Below are positions 32,147 to 59,346 of a DNA stretch of 64,000 bases, piece by piece. Position numbers and translations under genes: made by a program. The stretch's first letter is position 1; every line of letters starts with the position of its first letter. Source of the stretch: Tenacibaculum sp. Bg11-29 (GTDB lineage: Bacteria > Bacteroidota > Bacteroidia > Flavobacteriales > Flavobacteriaceae); NCBI RefSeq assembly GCF_002836595.1, contig NZ_PJBB01000003.1:3750501-3814500 (forward strand), read 5' to 3'. The notes under the pieces were generated by a model. It worked only from the letters and a program-made list of their open reading frames with translations, searched no databases and was not told the origin of the DNA.

Positions 32147-33094
32147 TTAAAAAATCATCATTTTTTGAGTACATCTAGCTAAACTAGGTCTTCTTTCATA
32201 ATCAAAACCAAGTGTAATCATGTGAGTTCCATAATTAAAATCTTGTGTTTCATTCATGTTAATACTAAAACCATAAGACATATATAAATTATCCTTTTTT
32301 ATACCCAATAGCGGTGCAATTGCATTAGGTACAAAAAACTGATCATTTAAAAAGGTATAACTTAAACCTGCCCAAACATATCCATCATTAATACCTTTTC
32401 TCACTTTAATGTTTAAATCGGTTCTAGATCTTTTATCAGCTTCATAATATTCAACAAAAATAGAAGGTTCAATTTCTATATTATTTCTAATTCTTGCTAA
32501 AACATATGAAGAATAGGCTGTAAATCTTCTTAACGCTTCTGGTTCATTTGTCGTTAAGTTTTCTACTTTTTTGTTTAATATGTTATTAGCGTTTAAACTA
32601 ATACTAAATCGTTCATAACGATATAACATACCAACATCAAAATTAGAATTCGTTGCTGACCTATTTCCCACAGCTTGTCCTGAGTTATTCTTAGACGTAT
32701 CAATACCAAACTGCGTAAAATTATAACTTAAACCAAAAGATAAAAAACTATCATGAAAATCACTTAAAGTCAAATGACTAGCAAGGGATAATTTAACTCC
32801 TTTTTGAGAGGTAGCTCCATTTTTATCATTAAAAACAGTTATTCCTCCCCCAAATCGATCAGCTATACGAGCTTCAACTACTAATGATTGTGTATCAGGA
32901 GCACCATCAACCCCAATCCATTGACTTACCCCATTTAGCCTAATTTGTAACCCTGGTCCAATACCTGCATAACTAGGAGATATTAAAAAAGGGTTATCAG
33001 CCATGTGACTTATATACTGAGGTAAATTAATTTCTTGAGCTACTGATTTTACACTAAAAATTATGATGCTTATTGTTATTAATATCTTTTTCAT
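32147..33094 (-). CDS. sprF: PorP/SprF family type IX secretion outer-membrane protein
   Basis: The 315-residue protein has a signal peptide (ILITISIIIFSVKSVAQ) and the PorP/SprF beta-barrel pattern: LPQYISHMADNPFLISPSYAGIGPGLQIRLNGVSQWIGVDGAP at the N-terminus, VFNDKNGATSQKG, and a last strand region HMITLGFDYERRP. In Flavobacterium johnsoniae SprF is encoded right after sprB and is needed for SprB secretion to the surface; PorP-type partners are known to accompany type B sorting-domain proteins. The start codon is one base after the sprB-like stop codon, so the two are translationally linked. Confidence 0.9.
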   Translation of the reverse strand: MKKILITISIIIFSVKSVAQEINLPQYISHMADNPFLISPSYAGIGPGLQIRLNGVSQWIGVDGAPDTQSLVVEARIADRFGGGITVFNDKNGATSQKGVKLSLASHLTLSDFHDSFLSFGLSYNFTQFGIDTSKNNSGQAVGNRSATNSNFDVGMLYRYERFSISLNANNILNKKVENLTTNEPEALRRFTAYSSYVLARIRNNIEIEPSIFVEYYEADKRSRTDLNIKVRKGINDGYVWAGLSYTFLNDQFFVPNAIAPLLGIKKDNLYMSYGFSINMNETQDFNYGTHMITLGFDYERRPSLARCTQKMMIF

Positions 33095-33095
33095 T

Positions 33096-36000
33096 TTATC
33101 TATATAATGTAAAGTGTCCCATTAGTTTTTTCTCTTCTCCTGATAATTCATTGTAATAAAGAGTATACCAGTAATCTCCTGCTGGTAATGGTTTACCATC
33201 ATAGGTACCATCCCAACCTTGTTGCATTCCTCTAAACTTAGTTATTTCACGGGCATATCTATCAAATATATATACTTTTAAATTATGGTAGTTCTCTACT
33301 TCTAAAGGATACCAAAAATCGTTAACTCCATCACCATCTGGTGTAAATAAGTTTAATACAGTTATTGTTATATAAACTCCTTCTATAGTTATTGTTACTT
33401 CACATCCTCTAGCATCTGTTACCGTTATCGTATAATCTTTTGTTTGTAAAATTACAATTTCATTTTCATCTTCATAGTCAACTCCATCAACTGTAAAACT
33501 ATAAGGAGGTAAACCAAAATCTACATTTGCTATTAACTTATTTTTCTGAGAATCATCAATTGTCATTGTTAACGCTTGAATATCTTCAATATCAATAGGA
33601 TCTGACACTAAACTTTCTGAACATGAAGTTACAGTATCTGTAGCTGTAACAGTATAACCATTACCTGCGGCTACATCAATAAACTCACCAGTTGTATTTG
33701 TTGTTACTAATGCACCTCCTAGGTATAAACTATAAGACATGTTATTCTTATACTTATCAGCTACAATTGCTTTGATTATATTTCCTGTCGGACAAGTATA
33801 TTCAAAATCTACTGTTAATTCTAAATCTACAGATTCTATGGTTGTTAATGGTGCTATTGATTTTGGTGGGCATCCTCCTCCACTATCTCTTACACTAATT
33901 AAATATGTTGTATTTGCTTCAATTCCTGCTGCAGCACCTATTGTTATTTGATTTTGATTATAAGGTGTTGCGAACTCAACATTATTAATACTAATATAGT
34001 AAGGCTGTGTTCCTCCTTGAACATCAACAGTAATTATTGGTGTTGGACTACTTAAACAAATTTGTTCTGTTACACTAACCAAACTTATTTCTAATTCATC
34101 TGGTTCCAATATCTCTACTCTTATAGGTGCATTTATACAACCTACAATATCTTTAACAGTTACCCAATACACACCAGCTCCTAGATTCTCAAATACACCA
34201 TTTTTCACATATTTGTTTTCTGGGTATTCAGGACTACTTGGTTCAGAAACAATATTGAATTCATAATCTCCATTACCTTCTTGACCTGTTGCTGTAATTA
34301 TACCTGTATTACTACCAAAACATGTTACATTTTGAGTAGCTACAGCGGTTCCAACTAATGGTAGAGGTTGAGTAATTGTATACTGACCTGTTATAATACT
34401 ACAAACCTCTCCTCCTTTTGTGCTTCTTACGTTAATTTTATAAGTTCCTACATCTAAATTTGAAAATGAATTTGATATTTGCCAAGTACCATCTATTGGA
34501 GTATCTGATGCATCTAATAATTGGTATTCATAATTACCAAGACCATTTTCTGCATTTGCACTTAATACTGCATTTGCATCTCCGTTACATGTTATAAATG
34601 CCGATGCTGTATCTAAAGTTGCAGTTAAGCCTATATATGAGCTAATTGTTATTATTCTAGGATTTGAAATACATGACTCTGTATCTCTTACATAAAACTG
34701 ATGTTCACCTGCCCCTACACTAAATATATGATTTGGACCAGCATTTGGTGCTAAGAAATTAACTCCGTCAATACTAAATTCATAAGGCCCTGTTCCTCCT
34801 GCTCCTGATACTTCAACTGTTGCCTGTGTTGTATTACATGTAATATCTGCTGTAATATTTGCTGATGCAATTGTTTTAGTTGGATCAACTATATCAATAG
34901 GTCCTACTCTTCCGTCACAAGAATAACCATCAGACACTATTACTGAATACCCAACTCCTGCTGATAGGTTAGTAAATATTGGTGATGCTTGAGTTGTTGT
35001 TCTAGTTCCGTCAGGATATTCTAAAGCATACATATAATTTATAGGTGCATCTTGTAATTGCCCCCCTAAAACATTTATTGCTTCAATTGTAGCTGTATAC
35101 TCTCCAATACAATCGTTAGGTGTTACGGTATAACTTCCTGTTATTGTAGTACCTGGATCTAATTGAAAAGTTATCACTACTGTACAATTATTAGCATCTC
35201 TAACTGTAGCTTGATAGTTACCTGCTTCTAAACCTGTAATTACATTATTATTACCAAAGTTTTGAATGGTAACACTTGTTGTTGTATTTATCAATTCATA
35301 TTCATAAGCTCCCCAACCTCCTTGTGCTGTTAAGTCAACTTCTCCAGAAGTTAAAACATTACATTTTAAGTATGTTAATTCTTCTGAAAGCGTTAGAACA
35401 CTATCTGGTTCTTCAATAGTAAAATTACCTGATGTAACTGTACAGAAAGGTGTATTTGGCATATTTACAACAATATAATAATCACCTCCTGGTAACGTAT
35501 TTATTGTTGTTACTGCATTTCCAATACCATTACCTATCTGACCTGTTGTTACTCCTCCTACATTGAAAACTTCATATGAATAAATATCAACATATGGTGT
35601 GCTTGGATTAAAAATTAAATCGACACTTCCGTTACCTCCAGAACAAGCTCTTTGAATGTTATTAACTATTAACTCATATTCTGGTGTTTCATTTACAGTA
35701 TAATATTCTGTAAATACACAATTTGTATCAGTATTTTCAATTTCAATTCTATAATTTCCTGTTGCTAGTAAACTAATGAAATCTCCATCAATTGTTCTTA
35801 TTGGTTCCAATAATAAACCTGTTGTATCATTATACAGTCTATACTCTACATTTGCTATTGCTATTGTAGAACTGTATGTTGCAATAATATCTTCACCATT
35901 ATTACAATCAATTGCTTTTTGAGACGTAACTGTTACCCCTGTAATTCTTGCAAAAGGGTTTATAGTTCTTATTATTGTGTCTGAACAATTATTATCGTCA

Positions 36001-39000
36001 AAAACAGTAACTGTTATTTGACCTCCTGCTTCATTTGTAACAGTATAACTAAATACTCCACTATCTTGAGTAAGATCATCTGTGGTATCTCCAGGTGTAC
36101 CATTATCATATACAAATACTGCTCTTACAAAATTACCAGTACCTCCTGCTCCTACAGTATTTACTGACACTACAGCATTATTTGTTTCATTTCCTGTTGT
36201 ACAACCAAACTCACTTATTGTAACTGCTCCAGAAATATCAATATCAGCATTTTCAGTAATTGTTACGTTTCTAATACTTGAACATCCATTAGTCCCTGTT
36301 GCTGTAATTGTATAAATACCAGCTGGTAAATCTTCAAATGTACTTGTTGCAACATCTAAAGTTCCTGCTATTGGAGCTATAGTATAAGTTAATGGTGATA
36401 TACCATTATTAACAGGTGTCATCGTTATTGCACCATCTGAACTACCATTACAAATATCATCAATAACTGCCACAGCTGTAAACATTGGCTGTAATGCTGC
36501 TGCAATATCAATAGTTCTTACTACTGGACAGGCTGCTGGTGATGCATCTTCATCTGTTACTGTTACCGTATAAGTTCCTGCTACTGTTGGACTAAATGTT
36601 TGACCACTTATAAATGCTGTTCCGGCAACAATTACTGCGCTTGGACCTGCAATTTCATAGGTGTAATTATTAGATCCTGATGCTACTGTGATAACAACTG
36701 TTCCTGCCATTGGTATTGAACAAGTTAAATCTTTAGTCGTTGCTAAACTAAATACTAAATCTTCACTTATCGTTATCGCTGCTCCTGCTGGTGCAGCACA
36801 TCCGTTTGAATCGGTTACACTTACTGTGTAAACTTCTGCTGATAAATTAGCAAAAGTATGAGTCGTAGTTGCTATTACTCCTGTATTTCCTACTTCTACT
36901 CCGCCACTATTTGTTAATACATATGTATAGCTTCCTGTTCCTCCTGCTGCTGTTACTTCAATACTTCCGCCTACACTGGTATCACATGAATTATCTAATT
37001 CTGTAACTCCAAACGTTACTGCTACTGGAGCTGCTACTACAACATCTGCCGATGCTCCTTCACATCCATTTACATCACGTACTCGTATTGTGTAATTTCC
37101 TGCTGGTAAACCTGTAAATACATTGTTATTTAAGTTCGTTGCAAAAACATCTCCTGCTCTATAAGGAACGTTTGGTGCTCCTGTTACTTCTAACTGATAT
37201 GTATATCCGCCAAATCCATCTGCTCCTGTTGCTGTAATTGTTGCATCTGAAATTCCTGTACAACTTACTCCTGGATCTACTATTCCGCTTACTGATAAAA
37301 TTGCAGTAGGCTCTACTATTGTAAATTCATTTGTCTGAATCGTACAGAATGGTGTATTTGGACTCATATTAATTGATACATAATATGTTCCTGCTGGTAA
37401 ACCTGCTATCGTTTCTGTTACATTTCCAACTCCACTTCCTGTTACTGCTGGTACTAAAGAGGCTCCTGCTGATGTTAATACTTCATAATCATAACCTAAG
37501 GTATATGGTGTACTTACATCAAAACTTACATCAATACTTCCACCACTTACTCCGAAACAGGTGGTTTGTGGGTTATTTGCGATTGCTGTAAAGGCTGGTT
37601 CAGCATCTACTGTATATTCTTTTGTGAATACACAACCTGTTACTGGGTGTGTTGCTGTTATCTCATAAGTTCCTGTTGGTAAATCTGTAAAACTTGCTGA
37701 ACTTGTACCTAATGCTACTAATTCAACTGTTGATCCTACATAACCTGCTGGTGCACTTATAATGTTATAAGTAACATTTGAAATATCTGTTAATGTTTTA
37801 ACAGTGATATTATCTCCTGTTGTACAATCAATTGCTTTTGCTTGAGTAATTGTAATATCAGTAATAGCATCAAATGCATTAATTATTGTTGATGCTGATA
37901 ATGACATACAACTTGCACTATCTACTACTTCTACATAATAAGATCCTCCTGCAACATCTGTTATTATAAATACATGATCTGTACCTGTTACTGTTACTGT
38001 CGTTACTTCAACATCATCTGCTCTATTGGTTGAGTTATCTGCTGGGTTATCTCCTAGTACATCATGGTAAAGTCTTACCGTTGAATATACCGTAGATCCT
38101 CCTGATACTCCTGATCCATCTAGTGCATTTATACTTAATGTCGCATTCTGTACATTATTTGTATTCGCAGCACAAGCAAATTGAACATCTAATGGTGCCG
38201 TTACCGTTAATAATGGATTGTCTTCTACTAATATATTTAGCTCATCTGTAGAACAGCCATTATCACCTTCAACTGTTACTGTATAGGTTCCCGCTGGTAC
38301 AGCTATAAATGAACTGCTTGCTGCATCCCATGTTGCTTGACCTGCTAATAATCCTGCTCCGGCTGTTTGAATAATACTATAAGTATATGGCGTTAATCCT
38401 GTTGTTACTGAAACTGCTATACTTCCGTTTGCGCCTCCGTTACAGGTCACATCTACTACACTTGTCGTAAACACTGGTTGTAATGCTGCTGCAATATCAA
38501 TAGTTCTTACTACTGGACAGGCTGCTGGTGATGCATCTTCATCTGTTACTGTTACTGTATAAGTACCTGTAACTGTTGGACTAAATGTTTGACCACTTAT
38601 AAATGCTGATCCGGCTGGAATTGCTGTAAATCCTACTGGTCCTGCGACTTCATAAGTATAATTGTTAGATCCTGATGCTACTGTGATAACAACTGTTCCT
38701 GCTGTTGGTGCTGAACATGTTAAATCTTTAGTCGTTGCTAAACTAAATACTAAATCTTCACTTATCGTTATCGCTGCTCCTGCTGGTGCAGCACATCCGT
38801 TTGAATCGGTTACACTTACTGTATAAACTTCTGCTGATAAATTAGCAAAAGTATGTGTCGTAGTTGTTATTACTCCTGTATTTCCTACTTCTACTCCGCC
38901 ACTATTTGTTAATACATATGTATAGCTTCCTGTTCCTCCTGCTGCTGTTACTTCGATACTTCCGCCTACACTGGTATCACATGAATTATCTAATTCTGTA

Positions 39001-42000
39001 ACTCCAAACGTTACTGCTACTGGAGCTGCTACTACAACATCTGCCGATGCTCCTTCACATCCATTTACATCACGTACTCGTATTGTGTAATTTCCTGCTG
39101 GTAAACCTGTAAATACATTGTTATTTAAGTTCGTTGCAAAAACATCTCCTGCTCTATAAGGAACGTTTGGTGCTCCTGTTACTTCTAACTGATATGTATA
39201 TCCGCCAAATCCATCTGCTCCTGTTGCTGTAATTGTTGCATCTGAAATTCCTGTACAACTTACTCCTGGATCTACTATTCCGCTTACTGATAAAATTGCA
39301 GTAGGCTCTACTATTGTAAATTCATTTGTCTGAATCGTACAGAATGGTGTATTTGGACTCATATTAATTGATACATAATATGTTCCTGCTGGTAAACCTG
39401 CTATCGTTTCTGTTACATTTCCAACTCCACTTCCTGTTACTGCTGGTACTAAAGAGGCTCCTGCTGATGTTAATACTTCATAATCATAACCTAAGGTATA
39501 TGGTGTACTTACATCAAAACTTACATCAATACTTCCACCACTTACTCCGAAACAGGTGGTTTGTGGGTTATTTGCGATTGCTGTAAAGGCTGGTTCAGCA
39601 TCTACTGTATATTCTTTTGTGAATACACAACCTGTTACTGGGTGTGTTGCTGTTATCTCATAAGTTCCTGTTGGTAAATCTGTAAAACTTGCTGAACTTG
39701 TACCTAATGCTACTAATTCAACTGTTGATCCTACATAACCTGCTGGTGCACTTATAATGTTATAAGTAACATTTGAAATATCTGTTAATGTTTTAACAGT
39801 GATATTATCTCCTGTTGTACAATCAATTGCTTTTGCTTGAGTAATTGTAATATCAGTAATAGCATCAAATGCATTAATTATTGTTGATGCTGATAATGAC
39901 ATACAACTTGCACTATCTACTACTTCTACATAATAAGATCCTCCTGCAACATCTGTTATTATAAATACATGATCTGTACCTGTTACTGTTACTGTCGTTA
40001 CTTCAACATCATCTGCTCTATTGGTTGAGTTATCTGCTGGGTTATCTCCTAGTACATCATGGTAAAGTCTTACCGTTGAATATACCGTAGATCCTCCTGA
40101 TACTCCTGATCCATCTAGTGCATTTATACTTAATGTCGCATTCTGTACATTATTTGTATTCGCAGCACAAGCAAATTGAACATCTAATGGTGCCGTTACC
40201 GTTAATAATGGATTGTCTTCTACTAATATATTTAGCTCATCTGTAGAACAGCCATTATCACCTTCAACTGTTACTGTATAGGTTCCCGCTGGTACAGCTA
40301 TAAATGAACTGCTTGCTGCATCCCATGTTGCTTGACCTGCTAATAATCCTGCTCCGGCTGTTTGAATAATACTATAAGTATATGGCGTTAATCCTGTTGT
40401 TACTGAAACTGCTATACTTCCGTTTGCGCCTCCGTTACAGGTCACATCTACTACACTTGTCGTAAACACTGGTTGTAATGCTGCTGCAATATCAATAGTT
40501 CTTACTACTGGACAGGCTGCTGGTGATGCATCTTCATCTGTTACTGTTACTGTATAAGTACCTGTAACTGTTGGACTAAATGTTTGACCACTTATAAATG
40601 CTGATCCGGCTGGAATTGCTGTAAATCCTACTGGTCCTGCGACTTCATAAGTATAATTGTTAGATCCTGATGCTACTGTGATAACAACTGTTCCTGCTGT
40701 TGGTGCTGAACATGTTAAATCTTTAGTCGTTGCTAAACTAAATACTAAATCTTCACTTATCGTTATCGCTGCTCCTGCTGGTGCAGCACATCCGTTTGAA
40801 TCGGTTACACTTACTGTATAAACTTCTGCTGATAAATTAGCAAAAGTATGTGTCGTAGTTGTTATTACTCCTGTATTTCCTACTTCTACTCCGCCACTAT
40901 TTGTTAATACATATGTATAGCTTCCTGTTCCTCCTGCTGCTGTTACTTCGATACTTCCGCCTACACTGGTATCACATGAATTATCTAATTCTGTAACTCC
41001 AAACGTTACTGCTACTGGAGCTGCTACTACAACATCTGCCGATGCTCCTTCACATCCATTTACATCACGTACTCGTATTGTGTAATTTCCTGCTGGTAAA
41101 CCTGTAAATACATTGTTATTTAAGTTCGTTGCAAAAACATCTCCTGCTCTATAAGGAACGTTTGGTGCTCCTGTTACTTCTAACTGATATGTATATCCGC
41201 CAAATCCATCTGCTCCTGTTGCTGTAATTGTTGCATCTGAAATTCCTGTACAACTTACTCCTGGATCTACTATTCCGCTTACTGATAAAATTGCAGTAGG
41301 CTCTACTATTGTAAATTCATTTGTCTGAATCGTACAGAATGGTGTATTTGGACTCATATTAATTGATACATAATATGTTCCTGCTGGTAAACCTGCTATC
41401 GTTTCTGTTACATTTCCAACTCCACTTCCTGTTACTGCTGGTACTAAAGAGGCTCCTGCTGATGTTAATACTTCATAATCATAACCTAAGGTATATGGTG
41501 TACTTACATCAAAACTTACATCAATACTTCCACCACTTACTCCGAAACAGGTGGTTTGTGGGTTATTTGCGATTGCTGTAAAGGCTGGTTCAGCATCTAC
41601 TGTATATTCTTTTGTGAATACACAACCTGTTACTGGGTGTGTTGCTGTTATCTCATAAGTTCCTGTTGGTAAATCTGTAAAACTTGCTGAACTTGTACCT
41701 AATGCTACTAATTCAACTGTTGATCCTACATAACCTGCTGGTGCACTTATAATGTTATAAGTAACATTTGAAATATCTGTTAATGTTTTAACAGTGATAT
41801 TATCTCCTGTTGTACAATCAATTGCTTTTGCTTGAGTAATTGTAATATCAGTAATAGCATCAAATGCATTAATTATTGTTGATGCTGATAATGACATACA
41901 ACTTGCACTATCTACTACTTCTACATAATAAGATCCTCCTGCAACATCTGTTATTATAAATACATGATCTGTACCTGTTACTGTTACTGTCGTTACTTCA

Positions 42001-45000
42001 ACATCATCTGCTCTATTGGTTGAGTTATCTGCTGGATTATCTCCTAGTACGTCATGGTAAAGTCTTACTGTAGAATATACCGTAGTTCCTCCTGATACTC
42101 CAAAAGTATCTAGTGCATTTATACTTAATGTCGCATTGTTTACTGTATTTGTATTCGCTGCACATGCAAACTGAACGTCTAATGGGGCTGTTACTGTTAA
42201 TAATGGATTATCATCTACTACGATATTTAATTCGTCTGTAGAACATCCATTATCTCCCGAAACTGTTACAGTATATGTTCCCGCTGGTACATCTATAAAT
42301 GAATTGCTTGTTGCATCCCATGTTGCTAATCCGGCTCCTAAAACTGGTAAATCTGTTTTAACAATACTATAAACATATGGCGTTAAACCTACCGTTACTG
42401 AAACTCCAATACTTCCGTTTGCTGAACCATCACACGTCGCATCAACTACACTTGTCGTAAAAACTGGCTGTAAGGCTGGTTGTACTATAAATGTTTTTGT
42501 TAACGTACAGTTAGGTGTTTCAGCTGTATCTGTTATTATTATTGTATAATCATCTGCAACAGCTGTGCTAAAAGTAAATGGATTACTTGGTAGAGCGGTT
42601 CCTGCTGTTACTACTACTCCACTAACAGTACCTGTTACTTCGTAAGTATATATACCACTACCACTAGTTACATTTACATCATATGTTGCTTCATCTGCTG
42701 GAGATGGAGTATCGCATGTTAAGTTTTTGGTTGATGTTACAGTATACTCTAAACTTGGTTGTATATCAGCATTTGTAGTAACTGTACACCCACTAGCATC
42801 TCTTACTGTTATAATATGATTACCTGGTGTTAAGTTTTCAGCAATAAACTCAGCATATCCTAAACCTCCATCTAATACGACTAAGCTACTGAATGCTCCA
42901 GCATCTACTGAGAACTGATAAGGGCCTGTTCCGCTATTAACTCTCGTGGTAATTGTTTTATTAACACCACAACTATTTGGCGTACTACTTATAACATTAG
43001 GTAATTGACCGACGACGAGAGATTCTGGTCCTACTGTTGTTGTACAACTATTACCATTACTATCTGTTATTGTTATATTAATTCCTGTAACATCTAAAGT
43101 AGGATTTGTTACATCTGCATAAGCAAACTCAATAGTTGTTCCTGAAACTATAGCATCTGCAGGAAGGAAGTTAACAGAAGAAGCTACTGAATATGTATAC
43201 GGTTCTATTCCCCCTGTAGCGTTTATACTTATAACCCCATTAGTACTACATGTTATATCACTTACTACTGTTAAGGTTGCATTTATTGGTGCAGTTTCTA
43301 ATATCTCTATGTTTGGACTCGCAAAAGTACATGTTCCTGCATTATTCTCTATCTCTAAATAATAAGTTCCAGGAGAAAGAGTTCCGTTTCCAGCTGGCAA
43401 TATCGGTGCTAAACTACCTTGTGTTCCTGTTTCTACTGAAGTAGAGACTCCTGTAACAACGTTAAGACTAAAAAGCTCCCAATTAATTGCTGGAACACCT
43501 CCTGTAAGTAAATTTGATGTAGTATCATCAATATCAAACTGTAAACTACCAGTATTTCCTCCATTACAAGATTCACTTAGAATTGAAGGTGTTATTACTA
43601 CATCAATATCAATAATAAAAGTATCATCTACTTTTACACAATCATTATCTCCTAAATCTTTAACAAAGAAATAATAAGTTCTCCCTGGAGTTAACCCATT
43701 AAATGTATAAGTAGTTGCAGCAGTACCAATACCTGCAGGTTGCCATCCACTAGGACCAGGTGCTACTTGTATTGTATTATAAGTATATTGATAATTTCCA
43801 ACACCTCCTGAAACATTTACTACTGCTTCTGCTCCTGTAGTACAATCTGCCGAATTAGTAGTAACATTCACTACTAAAGGACTTACTTCAAAAGGCATTG
43901 TATAAGAGCCTATACTGTTAAAGCAATAGGTTATCAATTCTGTTGCTATATCAGTAATTCTAATAGCAGGAAAAGTTACTGTTCCATAATTAAAATCTGG
44001 ACTCCCATCAGTTCCTCTAAAAATAGGACTGTCTTGCCATGTTACTCCATTATCAACACTAAACTGTAGTTTATTTGGTGCTGAAATTGTAGGAAAACCT
44101 GTAAAATCATATCCGAATAAAGTTTCATTTGTTCCTAAAGCAAATGGTGTACCACAAATAGGTCTTTCTGGAACAATTGAAATTGTTAATGCAGGTGGAT
44201 CAGTTAGTGTTACACTTTGACTATCTGTACATCCTAAATCATCTGTGATTTCTACTGTATATGTTTCTGCTGGTAAATTATCAAAACTAAAACCTGTACC
44301 AATAAAACCTGTTAAAGTTCTTGCTACTATAATACCACCACTATCTGCAATAGTAATAATATGTGGTGATTGACCTGTGTTTACAGTAATTACGCCTTTA
44401 ATACTTCCTGTTCTTCCGTTACAAGTTGGCTGATTACCTGTTATTGTAATTGCTACTGGTGTTATTTGCTCAATTACTACATCTTGGATTATGAATTCAC
44501 AATTTGCATCATCTCTTACATATATATCATAAGTACCTGCTGCTAAATTAGTAATTGGATTTGTTGTTGAAAATACTCCTGCAACACTACCATCAATTAC
44601 TGCTGAAAATTCGTAACCTATCGTAGATCCTCCTGTTGGAAATACTTCTATTTGCCCCGTAGGACTTCCTAATGGTACACAACTAGCATTTGTTGGTATA
44701 GCTGTTGCTACTAATGTATTATTTATTGTAACAGCTGCTGTTTCTATACAACCAGCAATATCTCTAATACTTACTGTGTAGCCTATGTTAGATAAACCTG
44801 TAATACTAAAAGAAGTTGCGTTAGCTGGAGTTGGTGTTTGCCATGTTGCTCCATCTAAACTATATTCATAAGTACCATTACCATTCGTTATGTTTACATC
44901 AATAATACCATTAACTCCGTCATAACATTGTGGAACTGCTGTGAAAATTATAGCTTCTCTAACTGGTACATTTATTAAAAATGGTGTCGAACGACAACTT

Positions 45001-48000
45001 TCTACATCTATTGCTACAACCCAATAATCTCCAGCTATATCAATATCTGTAAATGGTGCGCCTGTTTGAACTGCTGCTCCGGTTGCCGTTGCATTATCAA
45101 ATAATTCATATGTATATGCTGCTCCGTTTCCTCCTGATGTCGTTGGTGTTATTGTTATTGTTGCTCCATCTAAAGTAGGATCTGCATCACATGTAATATC
45201 TTTTGTTACTGTTGCTGCAACGACTATTGGTGATGGATCTGATAAAACAACTGGATCTAACGTAATGTTACAATCTGTGACTGGTGCCCCTGTTGGTTTT
45301 ACTAAAATGTTATAAGTAATGTTATCTAAATTCGGAATCGTAAATGGATTTGCTCCTGATGCAATCCAAGTTCCTCCACCATCTAATGAATAATCAAAAT
45401 CTGTTGGTACTGTTGATGGAAATGAAGCCGTAACCTCTATTGTTCCATTGGTATCTCCAATACAAACAGGATTCGTTTGATTTGTTACTACTGCTGTAAA
45501 TTCTTGATTATCTAAAATCGTAATGTTTACAACATCTACCGTACAATCACTTCCATAATCAACGGTTACTGTATAAGTACCATCTGATAAATCATTGAAA
45601 ATACCTGTCGTATTTGTTGTTGCTCCTAAAGTATAATTATATACTCCTGCTGGTAAAGCTGTTATTGTAATATTTCCTGTCCCATCACAATTATAAGCTA
45701 CTGCACTTGTTAATCCTGGTGCTGTTGGTAATGCTGGTATAACAACTGCTGGTGTTGTTACAAAATTACATGTATTTACATCGCTTATTGTTACCGTATA
45801 ACTTCCATCTGTTAATCCTGTAAATACATGATCAAAAGTTACAGTATCTGTAGTGTGTGTTGTCGTAGTAATTCCATCATCTAATGTATATGTATAAGGT
45901 GGTGTTCCTCCTACTACATTCTCTACTGTAATTTCTCCTAATTGAAGACATGTATAATCTTGTGATTGTCTTGAGTCTCCAGCTATTGCATTTGGTGCGG
46001 TTATTATTACCGTCTCTGGTAATGGATTCGTACATCCATTTGCATCCGTAACTAAAACATCATAAGTTCCTTCGGCTAATGTTCCAAAAGAAATTGCAGC
46101 ATCTGATGAAGGTCCAAACGTATGAACTGTTCCTGGTGCTCCTTGAAGTGTTAATGTTGTTGTATAATTTGAAGTTCCATTACTTATTGCAATATTAACA
46201 GTTCCAGTGCCTCCACTACAATCTGGTTGCACAGCCGTTACTACTACTGTAGGATCTGCTATTCTTGTTATTGTTACATTTTCTGAATATTCACAATATC
46301 CAACTGCGCCTCCTTGGTCTCTTACACTTACACTATAAGTTCCTGCCGCTACATTTATTGGACTTGTTGTTGTGGTTATTACTGCTCCAACTGTTGGTGC
46401 TAATGGTGTTACTACATACTGGTAGTTTCCATCTCCTCCAATTGGTGTAATGGCTATCTGTCCTAATGCACTACAAATCTCATTTGTTAGTACAACAGTC
46501 GCTGTTATTTGTGGGTTAATTGTTGCTGGTTCGGTTGTCGTACATTCAAAACCATCTATAACGGTTACATTATAGGTACCATCTGTTAATCCTGTAAATA
46601 TATTTGATGCCTGTGTAGTTGTTCCACCATCTAAGCTGTATAAATAATTACCATTACCAGTTGTTATATTTACAGTTAATGTTCCGTTTGTTCCATCATA
46701 ACAAACCTCTGGTGTTACTGTAAAAGCTAATACAACTTTATCTGGTACATTTACTAGAACTGGTATCGAACGACAACTTTCTACATCTATTGCTACAACC
46801 CAATAATCTCCAGCTATATCAATATCTGTAAATGGTGCGCCTGTTTGAACTGCTGCTCCGGTTGCCGTTGCATTATCAAATAATTCATATGTATATGCTG
46901 CTCCGTTTCCTCCTGATGTCGTTGGTGTTATTGTTATTGTTGCTCCATCTAAAGTAGGATCTGCATCACATGTAATATCTTTTGTTACTGTTGCTGCAAC
47001 GACTATTGGTGATGGATCTGATAAAACAACTGGATCTAACGTAATGTTACAATCTGTGACTGGTGCCCCTGTTGGTTTTACTAAAATGTTATAAGTAATG
47101 TTATCTAAATTCGGAATCGTAAATGGATTTGCTCCTGATGCAATCCAAGTTCCTCCACCATCTAATGAATAATCAAAATCTGTTGGTACTGTTGATGGAA
47201 ATGAAGCCGTAACCTCTATTGTTCCATTGGTATCTCCAATACAAACAGGATTCGTTTGATTTGTTACTACTGCTGTAAATTCTTGATTATCTAAAATCGT
47301 AATGTTTACAACATCTACCGTACAATCACTTCCATAATCAACGGTTACTGTATAAGTACCATCTGATAAATCATTGAAAATACCTGTCGTATTTGTTGTT
47401 GCTCCTAAAGTATAATTATATACTCCTGCTGGTAAAGCTGTTATTGTAATATTTCCTGTCCCATCACAATTATAAGCTACTGCACTTGTTAATCCTGGTG
47501 CTGTTGGTAATGCTGGTATAACAACTGCTGGTGTTGTTACAAAATTACATGTATTTACATCGCTTATTGTTACCGTATAACTTCCATCTGTTAATCCTGT
47601 AAATACATGATCAAAAGTTACAGTATCTGTAGTGTGTGTTGTCGTAGTAATTCCATCATCTAATGTATATGTATAAGGTGGTGTTCCTCCTACTACATTC
47701 TCTACTGTAATTTCTCCTAATTGAAGACATGTATAATCTTGTGATTGTCTTGAGTCTCCAGCTATTGCATTTGGTGCGGTTATTATTACCGTCTCTGGTA
47801 ATGGATTCGTACATCCATTTGCATCCGTAACTAAAACATCATAAGTTCCTTCGGCTAATGTTCCAAAAGAAATTGCAGCATCTGATGAAGGTCCAAACGT
47901 ATGAACTGTTCCTGGTGCTCCTTGAAGTGTTAATGTTGTTGTATAATTTGAAGTTCCATTACTTATTGCAATATTAACAGTTCCAGTGCCTCCACTACAA

Positions 48001-51000
48001 TCTGGTTGCACAGCCGTTACTACTACTGTAGGATCTGCTATTCTTGTTATTGTTACATTTTCTGAATATTCACAATATCCAACTGCGCCTCCTTGGTCTC
48101 TTACACTTACACTATAAGTTCCTGCCGCTACATTTATTGGACTTGTTGTTGTGGTTATTACTGCTCCAACTGTTGGTGCTAATGGTGTTACTACATACTG
48201 GTAGTTTCCATCTCCTCCAATTGGTGTAATGGCTATCTGTCCTAATGCACTACAAATCTCATTTGTTAGTACAACAGTCGCTGTTATTTGTGGGTTAATT
48301 GTTGCTGGTTCGGTTGTCGTACATTCAAAACCATCTATAACGGTTACATTATAGGTACCATCTGTTAATCCTGTAAATATATTTGATGCCTGTGTAGTTG
48401 TTCCACCATCTAAGCTGTATAAATAATTACCATTACCAGTTGTTATATTTACAGTTAATGTTCCGTTTGTTCCATCATAACAAACCTCTGGTGTTACTGT
48501 AAAAGCTAATACAACTTTATCTGGTACATTTACTAGAACTGGTATCGAACGACAACTTTCTACATCTATTGCTACAACCCAATAATCTCCAGCTATATCA
48601 ATATCTGTAAATGGTGCGCCTGTTTGAACTGCTGCTCCGGTTGCCGTTGCATTATCAAATAATTCATATGTATATGCTGCTCCGTTTCCTCCTGATGTCG
48701 TTGGTGTTATTGTTATTGTTGCTCCATCTAAAGTAGGATCTGCATCACATGTAATATCTTTTGTTACTGTTGCTGCAACGACTATTGGTGATGGATCTGA
48801 TAAAACAACTGGATCTAACGTAATGTTACAATCTGTGACTGGTGCCCCTGTTGGTTTTACTAAAATGTTATAAGTAATGTTATCTAAATTCGGAATCGTA
48901 AATGGATTTGCTCCTGATGCAATCCAAGTTCCTCCACCATCTAATGAATAATCAAAATCTGTTGGTACTGTTGATGGAAATGAAGCCGTAACCTCTATTG
49001 TTCCATTGGTATCTCCAATACAAACAGGATTCGTTTGATTTGTTACTACTGCTGTAAATTCTTGATTATCTAAAATCGTAATGTTTACAACATCTACCGT
49101 ACAATCACTTCCATAATCAACGGTTACTGTATAAGTACCATCTGATAAATCATTGAAAATACCTGTCGTATTTGTTGTTGCTCCTAAAGTATAATTATAT
49201 ACTCCTGCTGGTAAAGCTGTTATTGTAATATTTCCTGTCCCATCACAATTATAAGCTACTGCACTTGTTAATCCTGGTGCTGTTGGTAATGCTGGTATAA
49301 CAACTGCTGGTGTTGTTACAAAATTACATGTATTTACATCGCTTATTGTTACCGTATAACTTCCATCTGTTAATCCTGTAAATACATGATCAAAAGTTAC
49401 AGTATCTGTAGTGTGTGTTGTCGTAGTAATTCCATCATCTAATGTATATGTATAAGGTGGTGTTCCTCCTACTACATTCTCTACTGTAATTTCTCCTAAT
49501 TGAAGACATGTATAATCTTGTGATTGTCTTGAGTCTCCAGCTATTGCATTTGGTGCGGTTATTATTACCGTCTCTGGTAATGGATTCGTACATCCATTTG
49601 CATCCGTAACTAAAACATCATAAGTTCCTTCGGCTAATGTTCCAAAAGAAATTGCAGCATCTGATGAAGGTCCAAACGTATGAACTGTTCCTGGTGCTCC
49701 TTGAAGTGTTAATGTTGTTGTATAATTTGAAGTTCCATTACTTATTGCAATATTAACAGTTCCAGTGCCTCCACTACAATCTGGTTGCACAGCCGTTACT
49801 ACTACTGTAGGATCTGCTATTCTTGTTATTGTTACATTTTCTGAATATTCACAATATCCAACTGCGCCTCCTTGGTCTCTTACACTTACACTATAAGTTC
49901 CTGCCGCTACATTTATTGGACTTGTTGTTGTGGTTATTACTGCTCCAACTGTTGGTGCTAATGGTGTTACTACATATTGGTAGTTTCCATCTCCTCCAAT
50001 TGGTGTAATGGCTATCTGTCCTAATGCACTACAAATCTCATTTGTTGGTACAACAGTCGCTGTTATTTGTGGGTTAATTGTTGCTGATACTGCAGGTATT
50101 GTACATGATAAACCATCTGTAACGGTTACATTATAAGTACCATCCGTTAATCCTGTAAATACATTTGATGTTTGTGTTGTTGTTCCGCCATCTAAACTAT
50201 ATATGTAATTACCATTACCAGTTGTTACGTTTACTGTTAATGTTCCATTTGTTCCATCATAACAAACCTCTGGTGTTACTGTAAAAGCAACTGGTGTTGG
50301 TGCTATTAATGGAATACTAACTGGTATACAATTATTTCTAGCTATCGTAATTTTAACATCATCAATAAAATTACCGACACTTATACTTCCACTTGCAGTA
50401 GATACAGCATCAAAAGCAATAACAGTTGTTGATTGACCTACTGGTACAGTATAAGTTCCTGAATATACTCCCCAAGCAGTTCTTCCATCTGACATTGTTT
50501 CTACTACAGAAGCAGTTGCTAAATCATCTCCTATTTTAACAGTTGCTACATCTGTACCAGATCTACCTCTATGTGCAACAGACCAACTTATTACATCACC
50601 TGGTTGCGTACAATACTCTTGAAATAATGAAGATTCTAAATTTGCATTTAATTCTGCATGAGCTACTCCATCATGAGCTGGTACTCCATTAAAATTATTA
50701 TACCATATTTCTATTCTATTATCACTTGCTGTAGAATCCCAACCTGGAACATTGTTTTCATTATATATTCTAAAGGTTCTTCCTGTTCTAGCAGGTAATT
50801 CAAAACTTCCATTTTCAAATAAATTTGAAGTACAACCGCATTCATTACAGTTTCTACTATCACGAATCATAACAATATAATCAGTAGCTCTTGCTGGTAC
50901 GTTTGAAAATATTGGAGAATTTTGCCATGAGGCACCATTATCTATGCTAAATTCATATGGAGGTACTCCTCCTGATGCTACAGCTGTAATTGTACCTGTT

Positions 51001-54000
51001 GATGGTAGTACACATGTTGGTATTTGAGTTGCTGAAGCTGATAATGTTAATTCATCTGGTTGAGTTATTACTACATTTCCTAAATCTATGACACATGTTT
51101 TTCCTCCATCTGTCTCTCTAATAAATACATTATAAGTATCCGCAGCTAAACCAATTACTCTATATGGATTGTCAGATGTAGCTGACCATGTCGTTCCTCC
51201 GTCAGTCGAGTATTCAAAAGTTGTTCCAACAACATTAGTTGCTCCTATTGTTATTGTTCCGTTATCTGCCCCAAAACATTCACTATCTGACCAACGATCA
51301 ATACTCCCTGAAAAAATATTTCCTGGTTGAACTGTTACAGGTAAATCTAATCTACAATTACCAAAGTAGTTTACTCTAATTATATGATTTCCAACTGCAG
51401 TATTAGCAAATATGTTTGCATTTACTCCTGTTTGAGGTGTTCCACCATCTAAAGTATAACTATATGTTGCGTTAAAAGGAGTTACTGTTATTGTTCCTTC
51501 CCCTTCACAATTATATTCTATAGAATGGTTAAGTGTTGGTGCACCAGGTATCGGATCTATAACAACATCTGTTAAATTTCTTTCACAACCTCTCGCATCC
51601 TCAACTTTCACATTATAAGTACCTGATACTAATCCTGATACTGATACTCCTGTGACTGCAATGAAAGTAGCATCTGTAGAAAGTTTATAATAATAAGTAT
51701 ATGCTCCACTTCCTCCTGTTGGTGGTGTAAAGGTTAAAGTTCCTAAAATTGTATTTCCAGCAGTATTACACTCATAATCGGTTCCGACTACATCACCACC
51801 AGTAAGTGGTGAGGGTTCTGTAATTGCTATATTAGTAATCTCATAATCACATTGATAACCTGTTTTTGATGCTCTTATTGTTATCGTATAATTAGGATTT
51901 GCTGACAAATTGTTAAATACACCTGTAGTGTTCCAAGGGCCTCCGGCTCCATTTATACTATATTCTATAGGAGAAAAACCTAAATCACTACCAACTACAT
52001 TAACATTAATACTACCATCTGTCAATCCATTACATGAAATGTTAGTTGCAGTATGATTAAATTGTAATTCTGGTTCAACATTAATTGTTACTGGAGTTGA
52101 AATAGTAGTACAATTATTACTATCAACTACAATAAAGGTATAAACCCCTTCTTGACCGTTAATAACTTGATGTGTGGTGTTTGTGAAATAAGCTGTTGCA
52201 GGAATATCTGATATATTAGCATACAAAGGTGTTCCATCCTTAGACCAAATAGCAAAAGAATAAACGTCAGATCCACTTAAAACACCTCCAGTAGGATTTA
52301 AAGTTATAATTCCATTAGAAGTTCCACCTAAACATGATATATCTTTTGTTGGTATTGCTGTTAAATTAAGTTCATCAGGTTCAGTAATAACAATATCTTC
52401 TGATGCTATACATAAAACATTAGGTACAGATACAGTTACAGTATAATTACCCCCATCAGTTACATTAAAAGTAAAATCATTATTCGCAGTAGGACCTTCT
52501 GTTGCAATTATACTTGCTCCTTGTGTTAAAACATATGTATAATCTCCTGGTGCCCCACTTACTTGAGTTCTAATTTGTGCAGGTTCATTTGCACATTGCA
52601 TATTAGTTGTTGTAACATTAAGAGCAATTGTTGTTTCTTGAATGTTTATTGCAGGAAATGTATAAATACATGTTGCTGTAGATCCGTTTGCTAATCTAAT
52701 AGATAAATTATAATCTCCTGGTGCTGTTACGGTAAAAGTATTACTCGTCTGAAAAGGCGCGTTAAATCCACCAGGACCTGTTAAGCTATATTCGTATCCG
52801 TTTGGTATATTATTAATAACTATATCTGCTGAATCACCACAAATAAGATCTTCTTTTACAATTGTAGGGGTTAATGGATCATTATAGACATTAAAATAAT
52901 AAGTTTTAGGACACTGTCCATCATATAAAACTTCTAATTTATATTGACCTGCAGCTGTAAACGTTTTTGAAAAATCTGTTCCTAAATCTGTCCAACTACA
53001 ACCTGAATCTACATTTGCACAACCAGTTATTGTTGTTGGGTTAGGACAAGATACTAACTCAAACCATCTTACTGTTGTACCTATTACACCTACAGGAGGA
53101 ACTACAAAAGGTAAATTTATATCTCTCGAACCTGCATTACCACATAAATAAATTTCAGCTAGTTCAATATTATTAGGACATGAATTTAAAACTTGATCGA
53201 CAAAAGGTATTAAAGGATTTGTTACAGTATTAAAAGCCGTTACATGTACAGTTTCAGTAGTACTTACACACCCAGCAGGTGAATTATTTGGAACCGTTTT
53301 AGTAACAATATAAGTACCTCCTTGAGTAACTGTTAAAATTTGATTTGTTCCTATTACAACTCCAAGGTTATTTGTATTCTCCCACGAATAAGATGCGAAA
53401 CCAGCTCCTGCAACTAAATCAGTACTTGCACCACATAATATTTGTGTTCTTTCAAACGTACAACCAGAAGTATCTATTAAAAAATTTGAGGTACCTACAG
53501 CACCTAAATTACATGCATCAACTCCAGAAAAACTTGGTTCATTAATAACTCTAGGTGTTCCTCCTTCATCACTATCATAGTTGGCAAATGCCTGATTCAT
53601 AATTACATTAGAACAAACATCTCTTAAATCATTACAGCTCGATACAACTTGTACTTTTAATTTAATTTCATATTCAGCACCATTTTCAGTAACCATACTA
53701 TTAGGAATATTAAACCTTAACTCCCCTCTAAATCCGTTCCCTATAGCAGGTGGTGTATATGTATAGTCTGCTGCTGTTAAGCCTGTTGGTAGTATTATAT
53801 CTGACTCTATTAAATCTACATTTGTTGGAAGTAAATCTATTAATTCTGTATTTAAAGCATTATCGGTTCCTACATTTTGAAACTTTATTGAATAAAATAT
53901 TTCATCACCAAAATCAACTCCCATATTTGGAGGTACAGGATTTCCTGCAGCATCTTCAATCGTTTTTATTAATTGAATTTTAGGTTCTATTATTTCTACA

Positions 54001-55219: not shown

Positions 55220-57061
55220 TTATTTTATATGTACTATTGTTTTAATATCGTAATATGAACCATTTAAATTGCTATTATACAAATCAATAGCCTCTTCTCT
55301 ATTGTCAGTCTTTGCAATATATACGTGCATATAACCAGTCTTGGGATTCACAAAATATCCTGCTTCAATTCCATCATTTACCAGTTCATCTACATTTCTG
55401 TCGGCTAAAGATTTTTTAGAATTCACATAAATTTGAATATAGTAACCAGGAGTAACACCTTGTATATTAGACATTGTTCGCACTCTTGCAGGCGCCTGTT
55501 TCTTAGGCTCCTTATAACTATCTCCGCTACTTCCAATTGTTAATTTCTCTATATATACAGGATCTTTTCCTCCTTTTTTTATCTTAATTGATGATTCATC
55601 GTTTTTATCATTATTCTCATACAAACGTGTTTTATCATTAAATTCATCAATTTTTTCTTCTGCATCTTCTTCTTTTGCAAATCGATCAATATATACATAA
55701 TACCATTTACCTTCTGGTTGATAAATATATTTAGCTTCTACTTTTAATCTCTTCCACTTATCTATTAAAACTTCAGCATTTTCTTTATCTCTAAATTTAT
55801 CTGCTACAATATAATACATTGTACCTCCGCCTCCAGAGTATGTAATGGTACTTTCACGCCATGGTTTATTTGACCTTCGTTTTAAAGAATTATCTTTTCC
55901 TTCTATCTGATTGCTAGGCACTATAGCTTCAGTTGTCTTAACAATATTTGGCGTAGGTTGATTTTTTAATAACCTAAGTATTTCGTCTACTTTTTTGTTT
56001 AAAATATCTATTGAGTCTTGAGCTGTTTGAATTTCATCAGATAAATCATTATGTTCTGGATTCAAGTATTCTTCTTTTTTCTCTGAAATTCTTTCAGGTA
56101 ATACAACGCTAACTTTTCCTGTTCTTCTTTTTGGTCTTTCTCTTCTAAATGATTTTTTACCAAAATTGTAGATTAGACCTATTTCATTGGTCGCTGCAAA
56201 TTTACTCTTCTCATAACTAAAACCTATTGCAATTTTTTCGGAAATATTTACTCCTACTCCTGCCGAAATACCATATGTTTTATCATAACCTACTTTTGCC
56301 CAACCTGCTTTAGGTAAATCTAATATTAAACTACCTCCTATGCTAAATTCATCTTTACCAGGCTTTCTAGCAATAACCAAAGTCCTTAAATCTGCTCCTT
56401 CAAATATTCCTGATGCGTATGTAAACTCACGAGAATACATTGCATGCGCCGAAAAAGTTTTTTCACCAAAAGAAGTAACCATTTCGCTACTCTTTAAATT
56501 AAAATCTATTAAATTTTCGAAAAACACACCAACATCAAACTTACCAAATGATAAAGTAACTGCTGGTTGTAACATAACTATTGGAATATCTTGAAAATTA
56601 CCTAAAAAAGAATCATCAGCATCTTGTACTAGTACTCTTGCCCAATCAATACTACTTCTGCTATATAAAAAATTGAACCCAAAAGTTAAATCCATGTTCT
56701 CATTTAACTGCAATCGCTGTGCATAATTAGCTATAGCACCAAAATCTTTCATAGCACCAACTTCTTGTTGGTATATAGCGAACCCAGCTCCTATATTTTC
56801 CCTCATTTTTCCAGCATACGAAACTAAATGCAATCTTGGGTTATCTTCAAAATCAACATTACTATTACGTACAATAGCAGTTAATGATGTTTTATTTTCT
56901 CGTAAAGCTGAAAAAGTAGGCACTGTTAAAAAACGATTAAACTTCATAAAGTTTCGAGAACTAAAAGAATTATAGTTCTGTCCGCTATCTGAAGTTTGCC
57001 CAAACATTGTTGTACTTAAGCTACTTAGTAAAATAAATAATATAGTTATTTTCCTTATCAT
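55220..57061 (-). CDS. sprD: SprD-like protein: PorP/SprF-type barrel fused to SPOR-like repeats
   Basis: The 613-residue protein has a signal peptide (ILFILLSSLSTTMFGQ), a PorP/SprF-like beta-barrel region (about 25-300: MKFNRFLTVPTFSALRENK, NIGAGFAIYQQEVGAMKDFG, and IAIGFSYEKSKF), a charged linker with a short coiled coil (about 325-365), and two SPOR-like modules (about 405-475, YYIVADKFRDKENAEVLIDKW; and about 535-613, GYYIQIYVNSKKSLADRNVDEL). SPOR modules bind peptidoglycan elsewhere, so it may anchor the adhesin machinery to the wall. Its place between the sprC-like and sprB-like genes matches sprD of F. johnsoniae. It starts five bases after the sprC-like gene and ends 44 bases before sprB. 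Confidence 0.78.
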   Translation of the reverse strand: MIRKITILFILLSSLSTTMFGQTSDSGQNYNSFSSRNFMKFNRFLTVPTFSALRENKTSLTAIVRNSNVDFEDNPRLHLVSYAGKMRENIGAGFAIYQQEVGAMKDFGAIANYAQRLQLNENMDLTFGFNFLYSRSSIDWARVLVQDADDSFLGNFQDIPIVMLQPAVTLSFGKFDVGVFFENLIDFNLKSSEMVTSFGEKTFSAHAMYSREFTYASGIFEGADLRTLVIARKPGKDEFSIGGSLILDLPKAGWAKVGYDKTYGISAGVGVNISEKIAIGFSYEKSKFAATNEIGLIYNFGKKSFRRERPKRRTGKVSVVLPERISEKKEEYLNPEHNDLSDEIQTAQDSIDILNKKVDEILRLLKNQPTPNIVKTTEAIVPSNQIEGKDNSLKRRSNKPWRESTITYSGGGGTMYYIVADKFRDKENAEVLIDKWKRLKVEAKYIYQPEGKWYYVYIDRFAKEEDAEEKIDEFNDKTRLYENNDKNDESSIKIKKGGKDPVYIEKLTIGSSGDSYKEPKKQAPARVRTMSNIQGVTPGYYIQIYVNSKKSLADRNVDELVNDGIEAGYFVNPKTGYMHVYIAKTDNREEAIDLYNSNLNGSYYDIKTIVHIK

Positions 57062-57066
57062 GTTTA

Positions 57067-59346
57067 TTAATGTAATACTGATATTGTACCTGCTTTTAGA
57101 ATTTTCTCATCACGAATAATTTTATAATAAAAAGTTCGCTGACTTCCTACATTCTCTAAAGGCCAATCATTTTTATAATCAGTAGTATTTAAAATTTCTT
57201 TTCCATTTGAATTATATAACTGTATCGTAATCAAGGGCTGAAAGGCATATCTATTCGATATTCTCCATGAATCATTTTTACCATCTCCATTTGGTGTTAC
57301 CACATTAGGCACAATAACTAAATCATCTTGTTCTACAACTTCAATTGTTTTCTCTACGGCACAGCTACCAACTGTAGCTACGACTGTATAAAAACCCAAT
57401 GTATCTACATCTAATGTTTCATTTGTTGATAAAACTGTACCACTAGTATCCTCTCCTTGATACCATATATATGAATCGGCACCTGAAGCTGTTACAGTAA
57501 CTGTTTCCCCTTCCTTCATTACAACTTTTTCTGACGGAGTTACTACAACTATTGATTCATCAAACAAAACAACGTTTATTGGATCAAGTATTTTTTCACA
57601 CCCTAAACCTGACATTTTCAAAACATAACTTCCTATTTCATCTACAACAAAATCTTTAACGTCTGTCGCTAATGGGGTTGTATCTCCATCTTTAAACCAT
57701 TCATATGTATAACCAGCAATCAACGCATTTATTGTATACGTTATTCCACCAGTGTTTGGGCATAGTGAATTTGAATTTGGCAGAGAAGTAACTACAGGTA
57801 ATGCACCTATTAATTTAATATCTAAACTAGCACTAGGTGTATTATCTTTTGTATTTCCTTTAACAGCACCTACACCGCAAGAGCTTATTTCTAAATCATA
57901 TTTACCATTTTCTAAATAAGAGCTTACAGCATGTTCATCTGTAACTTCTCCTGAAATAGCAACATCATCTTTATACCATTGATATTCTATTAATACTGGA
58001 GTATCTGCGCTAATTTGCGCATTTGTTAAATCGTATTTTTCATTATCTGAACCAATTGCTTTTATACCAACTATAGATAATTTTGCCGAAGATGATTCAC
58101 ACTCTGTATAACTTGTCCCTGTACCAATTACAACCTCAAAAGAAGTAGCGGCCAACAATGTTGTCTTTTCAGAATCAACAATATCAGGACATAATCCTGA
58201 TGATGCCTTGGTTACTCTAGCAAAATACACACCTGGTTCTACTGCAAAAATAGTTGCTTGATTTTGCCCTAATATAGCCTCTTCATCCTTATACCACTGA
58301 ATAGTTCCTCCGCTAGGCACATCACTTATTTCAAGCTCCCTAGTTTCACACGGTAATAGTATACTTTTGCCTGGATTTACTGTTGTAATCGTAAAACTAG
58401 CCGTTGTTTTTTGCTTTAACTCAACCTCGTTTGATGTTGTTACACAGTCATCGACTCCGGATCCTGTTATTATTTTTAAAACATATTTACCAAACTGACC
58501 TGCAGCTGGTGTCGTATATTCATTAGAATTTGATGACTGTTTTAATTCACCATCTAAATACCATTCATATACATATAACGGACTATTAACTAAAGCTTTA
58601 AAAGTATGTGTCTCATCTCCACAAATCTCAACCACTGACGAGGTATCAATTTGCGAATCGGCAGTACTAAGACCTGTAATAATAGCATGAATAGACTCAA
58701 CATTAGGACATGCTCCATAATCTATAATCACAAAATAATCTCCCGATTCAGTTATTGTAAATTTAGGTTCTGTTGTTGTTGCTAAAAGAATGTCAACCGC
58801 ACCATTTTCCTTATACCATAAGTACTCACCTACAACAGTCGTATTTAAAAACAATTCACTACTCTCTCCTGCACACGAGGTAAAACTATCTTCACCACTA
58901 CTATTTGCCAAAAACAATTCAAACGCATTAAACATATTTTCATAAGCCTCAAAAGAAGCAGAAACAGATTCCCTTACAGGTGATGTCGTACGAACACGTA
59001 TTTTATAATTTTTACCAAAAGTACCTGGTGGTAATTTAAAACCAACATTTTCTACACTATAGTTCGCATTAAGTGTAGGATCCGTTAATGTTGTTAACAA
59101 AACTGCTGGATCTCCAAAAACACCATTAGCATCTGATAACTCTATAATAAAATGATTATCATTATTAAAAAGTTTAGTAGTAAGCTCTATATCAATAAAA
59201 AAATTGCTAGAAGTAGGTCCATTATCACAAGCAGAGCCACCAAACTGTAACATAGGCGGTTCTAAGACCTGTGCGACCAATGTATATTGAATACAAAAAA
59301 GAAGTACAGCTATAAGTACTTGTAAGCTTCTTGTTATTTTATTCAT
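57067..59346 (-). CDS. sprC: SprC-like surface protein with type B C-terminal sorting domain
   Basis: The 759-residue protein has a signal peptide (LIAVLLFCIQYTLVAQ), a first beta domain (about 25-150), then five to six Ig/PKD-like modules each with a WYKD- or W(Y/F)xDG-type strand (YLWYKENGA, YEWYLDGEL, IQWYKDEEA, YQWYKDDVA, YEWFKDGD, YIWYQGED). It closes with the gliding-motility C-terminal domain (about 675-759: VPNVVTPNGDGKNDSWRISN...FYYKIIRDEKI) used for type IX export. It is the first gene of the four-gene cluster, matching sprC in the F. johnsoniae sprCDBF operon, where it is known to support gliding and SprB function. No clear TAnnTTTG element was found upstream. Confidence 0.8.
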   Translation of the reverse strand: MNKITRSLQVLIAVLLFCIQYTLVAQVLEPPMLQFGGSACDNGPTSSNFFIDIELTTKLFNNDNHFIIELSDANGVFGDPAVLLTTLTDPTLNANYSVENVGFKLPPGTFGKNYKIRVRTTSPVRESVSASFEAYENMFNAFELFLANSSGEDSFTSCAGESSELFLNTTVVGEYLWYKENGAVDILLATTTEPKFTITESGDYFVIIDYGACPNVESIHAIITGLSTADSQIDTSSVVEICGDETHTFKALVNSPLYVYEWYLDGELKQSSNSNEYTTPAAGQFGKYVLKIITGSGVDDCVTTSNEVELKQKTTASFTITTVNPGKSILLPCETRELEISDVPSGGTIQWYKDEEAILGQNQATIFAVEPGVYFARVTKASSGLCPDIVDSEKTTLLAATSFEVVIGTGTSYTECESSSAKLSIVGIKAIGSDNEKYDLTNAQISADTPVLIEYQWYKDDVAISGEVTDEHAVSSYLENGKYDLEISSCGVGAVKGNTKDNTPSASLDIKLIGALPVVTSLPNSNSLCPNTGGITYTINALIAGYTYEWFKDGDTTPLATDVKDFVVDEIGSYVLKMSGLGCEKILDPINVVLFDESIVVVTPSEKVVMKEGETVTVTASGADSYIWYQGEDTSGTVLSTNETLDVDTLGFYTVVATVGSCAVEKTIEVVEQDDLVIVPNVVTPNGDGKNDSWRISNRYAFQPLITIQLYNSNGKEILNTTDYKNDWPLENVGSQRTFYYKIIRDEKILKAGTISVLH

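Follow-up and report, generated by a model that had tools for sequence, protein, structure and literature searches.

The window studied here, a stretch of 64,000 nucleotides from Tenacibaculum sp. Bg11-29 (contig NZ_PJBB01000003.1, positions 3,750,501 to 3,814,500), carries on its minus strand, at 33096..55175, a single open frame of 7359 codons which, judged by its domains and neighbours, is the Tenacibaculum sprB, encoding a gliding adhesin secreted by the type IX secretion system (T9SS), within an sprC-D-B-F-like cluster. From the N- to the C-terminus the protein comprises an N-flank, a module resembling carbohydrate-binding modules (CBM), block B, a spacer, block A, a C-flank and a T9SS C-terminal domain (CTD). 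Each block is an array of long units, and we show that across species the number of units in block B (nB) equals the number in block A (nA), apart from the exceptions given below. We propose, as a reading that in our judgement could go either way, that recombination changes the number of units and selection holds the blocks equal, the likeliest cause being that the two run alongside each other in a filament folded back on itself.

Two repeat blocks of seven-domain units in one gene

Block B occupies 44943..50288 (minus strand, as for all parts of the adhesin; aa 1630-3411) and is parsed into three units of seven domains (48507-50288, 46728-48506 and 44943-46727) with a period of 593 aa. Block A, at 36477..42458 (aa 4240-6233), likewise has three seven-domain units (40464-42458, 38469-40463 and 36477-38468), with a period of 665 aa. 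At a lag of 1779 bp, similarity within block B extends over 44928-50112 (~2.92 copies) and the longest perfect run is 3211 bp (46766-49976 versus the copy one period on); at a lag of 1995 bp, block A shows similarity from 36628 to ~42386-42481 (~2.86 copies) and a longest perfect run of 3080 bp (38956-42035 versus the copy one period on). Across 20 codon-shuffled versions of the gene, identity over 600 bp at these two lags peaked at 0.41. An earlier note on this DNA had described two near-identical megarepeat blocks of differing period, with nearly three copies each, inside one gene, and the perfect runs bear this out; it was also right that both periods are multiples of three, 1779 and 1995 bp being 593 and 665 codons within the single frame. 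Differences between copies are concentrated toward the outer edges of the arrays. The edges of block B are sharp, and the upstream edge of block A fades over ~140 codons. Between the blocks lies the spacer (42459..44942, aa 3412-4239), with eight detected domains and one atypical stretch unmatched by our domain profile; the note had correctly seen a distinct region here, which consists of diverged domains, but had put it at ~2.9 kb when it is ~2.5 kb. The longest exact match between blocks A and B is 17 bp, and looser similarity is confined to short segments, one of them 62 bp at ~75%; a cause at the DNA level for the coupling of copy numbers described below was therefore set aside.

A domain profile built for this analysis finds 71 domains in the adhesin. 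Both units consist of seven SprB/Ig-like domains, despite their lengths of 593 and 665 residues. Domains seven positions apart resemble each other most, and this is true even of genes that lack near-identical copies (G055, G017, G018 and G008; G and L numbers are our handles for genomes and loci); G126 shows the seven-domain peak only weakly, and the short form G013 does not show it. The N-flank, the spacer and the C-flank hold degenerate relatives of these units, with swapped domain labels in the parse. In the N-flank (domains N1-N9, 50844..53459, aa 573-1444), the stretch N3-N9 is similar to a degenerate unit of B type, as is C1-C7 of the C-flank (C1-C12 with the CTD, 33099..36476) to one of A type. 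The C-flank is variable too, as L213 (G360) and L214 (G551), both with n = 1,1, have about three extra domains near C9. A distant second relative of 4998 aa, L185 (G107:C1:1720900-1736800), shows repeat periods of 2178, 279 and 1341 bp, and no domain was detected in it by this profile.

The numbers of B and A units mostly change together

The N-terminus of the adhesin was matched in 60 of 130 Tenacibaculum genomes of at least 90% completeness and in 299 of 396 family genomes (150 of 187 genera), and the sample takes one genome per species. Outside Tenacibaculum, 18 genes of more than 5000 codons were among the matches listed, of which 11 were expanded and equal, four read 1,1, two were unequal and one was irregular; to these were added a sample of shorter genes and seven longer ones from one genus; long genes are over-represented in the sample. 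G259 and G327 each come from a genus represented by one genome. The parser, which runs a separate loop for each block to give nB and nA and assumes seven-domain units, fits 65 intact genes with few irregular steps, and all 65 counts were identical under six parser settings. Full-length orthologues in Flavobacteriaceae share the layout of N-flank, n units of B, spacer, n units of A and C-flank, with n mostly 1 to 4. Many full genes total 43, 57, 71 or 85 domains, the rest being off by a missed or extra domain.

Several matches stand outside the 65. Nine short forms without a full unit of either block (G013, G053, G060, G026, G024, G086, G042, G011 and G146c15) were left out; all read 0,0 in four of the six settings, and the other two settings give 0,1 for five and eight of them. 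Also left out were G179 and G497 as irregular, G027 (a run of N), G067, G160 and G088 (contig ends), and other matches in G107, G002 and G042 that have few or no such domains. Further matches, among them G078, G140, G161 and two of G146, were not in the sample. Four genes whose frames are interrupted by stops or frame changes were counted apart, frame by frame: G045 (L127/L128/L140) and G142 (L188/L176) read 4,4 and G105 (L169/L189), in which part of the first A unit lies outside any listed frame, reads 2,2, so that with G072 (L186/L148) three of the four are equal.

Equality of nB and nA was observed in 62 of the 65 parsed intact genes, when shuffling gave a mean of 24 and a maximum of 38. 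It holds in 31 of the 34 genes with more than one unit, namely in all 15 expanded whole genes of Tenacibaculum (2,2 to 4,4) and in 16 of 19 from other genera. In 14 independent pairs differing in nB, nA differed in the same direction in 12-13 and in the opposite direction in none (sign test, median p 0.00024). On a tree built from flanking sequence we counted 21 changes for nB, 22 for nA and 23 for the joint pair, so at least 20 of the 23 are shared; random placement reached a maximum of 12 in 5000 draws. For the 23 complete or near-complete assemblies the counts were 10, 10 and 11, with at least 9 of 11 changes shared (null maximum 7), a result that matters because a count of 1,1 in a draft whose relatives read 2,2 may stem from a collapse. 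When nine drafts with diverged units were added to the complete assemblies, at least 10 of 12 changes were shared, again with a null maximum of 7. Two sister pairs lie one unit apart in both blocks (G055 1,1 and G022 2,2; G003 3,3 and G002 4,4). Taken together, the pair test and the shared tree changes rule out independent copy number in the two blocks, which the earlier note had called independent. Its proposal that units are gained and lost in frame agrees with the values of n = 1, 2, 3 and 4 in related species, but not its separate steps of 593 or 665 residues, as units usually come or go in pairs, one B with one A, a step of 14 domains or ~1200-1260 aa. No account of coupled SprB repeat blocks was found in the titles and abstract openings of openly licensed literature.

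History of the units

Trees were made from 39 B and 39 A units of 15 Tenacibaculum genes. In block B, 10 of the 13 multi-unit species have their own units grouped together, and in block A nine of the 13 do, which, with the perfect cores, supports recent duplication or ongoing homogenisation, much as the note proposed. The three genes of the Tenacibaculum finnmarkense clade behave otherwise, their units clustering by position. By these patterns the array is old and has been homogenised or re-expanded in most lineages, and not in one clade. The A units of G022 are split by the single A unit of G055, and this topology suggests that a unit was lost in G055. Higher-order repeats of satellite DNA are likewise built of multi-monomer units, with a homogenised core and diverged edges; the arrays described here differ in being bacterial coding sequence with a constrained number of units.

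Possible causes of the equality

In the account that we favour, homologous recombination between units would add, remove and homogenise them within each block, as the identity patterns and the unit trees indicate. As blocks A and B have no long stretch of DNA identity in common, one recombination event would alter a single block only, and selection would have to restore or keep nB = nA. The simplest cause of equality would be that B pairs laterally with A, in a single folded chain or across separate chains, so that block B lies alongside block A with seven domains against seven. Most likely the two blocks would then be the arms of a single chain that turns back at the spacer, and filament length would change in matched steps of one B and one A unit. 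We put forward this two-armed hairpin, in which n B units are set against n A units and selection matches the arms, tentatively, rating it rather below an even chance. If it is true, SprB would be a hairpin of adjustable length, growing and shrinking by paired units. Equal counts of two unrelated repeat blocks family-wide are an evolutionary signature of physical pairing, open to microscopy. With n running from 1 to 4, the genes described here also provide a single motility adhesin in a natural range of lengths.

Structure prediction gives the B unit as a string of beta domains (mean predicted local distance difference test score, pLDDT, 87.3; predicted template modelling score, pTM, 0.49). 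The closest solved relative found is GhpA, the grappling hook protein of Aureispira (sequence E 1e-99 with the B-unit profile; Foldseek E 1e-17), which resembles the adhesin in its homologous Ig-like domains and giant chain. Between N9 and block B, at 50286..50843 (aa 1445-1630), lies a module with a predicted CBM-like beta fold (mean pLDDT 76.9), whose best structural matches include CBM4/16/61 and also bacterial cyclases of similar fold. It is 57-99% identical to 16 aligned relatives, and within Tenacibaculum it is better conserved (57-99%) than the surrounding unit-like stretches (30-53%). On the strength of the predicted fold, this module is likely to be the binding part of the adhesin. 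With ~100 aa per domain, as here, and if each domain spans ~4 nm, a protein of ~6500 aa would reach an extended length of ~260 nm. In the parts of the source covered, a review, the SprB of Flavobacterium johnsoniae is given as ~6500 aa and ~150 nm (PMC13104615); fold-back is indirectly favoured because 150 nm is nearer to half of the extended length.

A number of observations weigh against the favoured account. Departures from equality occur in the intact genes of G534 and G565 (both 2,1 and both drafts) and G438 (two B units and five of seven A domains; two contigs), in G072, which reads 4,3 across its interrupted frames, and in the irregular genes of G179 (2,1 in five of the six settings) and G497 (no stable reading). 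The pair test on complete assemblies alone, with too few pairs, gave three in the same direction, none opposite and one without change (p 0.25), and with the diverged-unit drafts added five, none and none (p 0.06). GhpA is deposited as 56 chains in eight entries (PDB 9flp and others), which suggests by analogy a seven-chain bundle rather than a hairpin. Lastly, the CBM-like module near the N-terminus would sit at the tip in a linear stalk and near the base in a hairpin.

The last two points bear on alternatives to fold-back. SprB chains might instead pair with their neighbours in a bundle, the B block of each resting against the A block of the adjoining chain; this predicts equality just as the hairpin does, and the many chains of GhpA speak for it. 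Against it, GhpA matches at the level of domains, and its hit list for block B lacks a seven-domain register like that of the units here, and no data on SprB oligomers were found in the parts of the literature covered; we think pairing between chains unlikely, if still worth serious attention. Slightly less probable in our estimate is a linear stalk, in which units only lengthen the filament and carry the CBM-like module outward, equality reflecting shared ancestry and similar turnover. The module near the N-terminus and the CTD anchor at the C-terminus suit such a stalk, and gene length varies among species by whole repeats (n = 1 to 4), much as unit number does in the Periscope proteins, which in the parts of the source covered are surface proteins with a variable count of in-frame repeats (PMC8201768). 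The adhesin differs from what is described there in its seven-domain unit of ~560-680 aa, its two blocks and their coupled numbers. Nor do ancestry and turnover in each block readily account for changes that are so largely common to both blocks, in the whole tree and in the complete assemblies alike, at a level unreached in 5000 random draws, or for sister genes one unit apart in both blocks.

Two further explanations are in our view very improbable. Copies could have been created, collapsed or homogenised by assembly or polishing, as long exact repeats are error-prone. Among 20 draft gene pieces, 17 reach a contig end, 13 of them in block B or at its edge, two in block A and two before block B, so that block B is unresolved in the 13, and some draft counts of 1,1 or 2,1 may be collapses. 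In Tenacibaculum ovolyticum the gene is split between contigs, one breaking off within the first domain of block B and the other beginning within the third A unit; the part between them was not found among the 40 scored of 122 candidates. Assemblies from short reads are often broken at exactly this gene and may collapse it. An artefact is nevertheless hard to reconcile with the window's own contig of 4.54 Mb, with equality in 13 of 14 expanded genes from complete or near-complete assemblies (one to five contigs), one of which matches Tenacibaculum maritimum NCIMB 2154, a PacBio assembly according to the part of the source covered (PMC5561996), or with the nine diverged-unit drafts, which have no 24-mer lag above the cut-off and are all equal. 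Equally improbable is plain recent tandem duplication with an unconstrained number of units. It would explain the perfect identity of the cores and the sharp edges of block B, but the same seven-domain unit and two-block layout are seen throughout the family, the T. finnmarkense clade has old units that cluster by position, and the coupling of unit numbers speaks against it as a full account.

Identity and neighbourhood of the gene

We identify the adhesin as SprB because the C-terminal piece scores 138.9 bits with the SprB repeat family PF13573 (N-terminal piece 91.8; cut-off 28), the type B T9SS sorting domain TIGR04131 is found at 33099..33359 (aa 7273-7359; E 2.2e-26, 91.8 bits, cut-off 35) and SprF-like proteins are its neighbours. 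The surface filament expected in the earlier note is in this way accounted for. Among named relatives, that in T. ovolyticum DSM 18103 comes closest at the N-terminus (95% over 500 aa; records of the window's own genome possibly excluded). F. johnsoniae SprB, of 6497 aa according to the parts of the source covered (PMC9870892), is likewise a giant filament-forming gliding adhesin, and the type B T9SS CTD, the SprB repeats and the SprF-like neighbour are all present here. Two blocks with equal numbers of seven-domain units, as in the present gene, went unmentioned in the parts of the literature covered.

The adhesin gene is flanked on both sides by genes for PorP/SprF-family proteins. Directly downstream, at 32147..33094 (minus), lies the gene for an SprF-like PorP/SprF outer membrane protein. 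Upstream are a gene at 55220..57061 (minus) encoding a PorP/SprF domain and a SPOR domain, and another at 57067..59346 (minus) encoding Ig-like domains and a CHU_C C-terminal domain. These we take to be sprD-like and sprC-like, respectively, from position only, following the operon order of F. johnsoniae. The sprC-like protein scores 30.4 bits with TIGR04131, below the cut-off of 35.

Further SprB-repeat proteins are encoded in the same genome (G000:C3) at ~3347000-3351700, 3527300-3527700, 574200-574600 and 1281251-1281355, in frames of 1709, 2728, 1890 and 1713 codons, respectively. The window also contains an IS110-family transposase gene (PF01548, PF02371) at 9520-10512, and the adhesin cluster is bracketed by pseudouridine synthase genes at 31187-32080 and 60351-61385.

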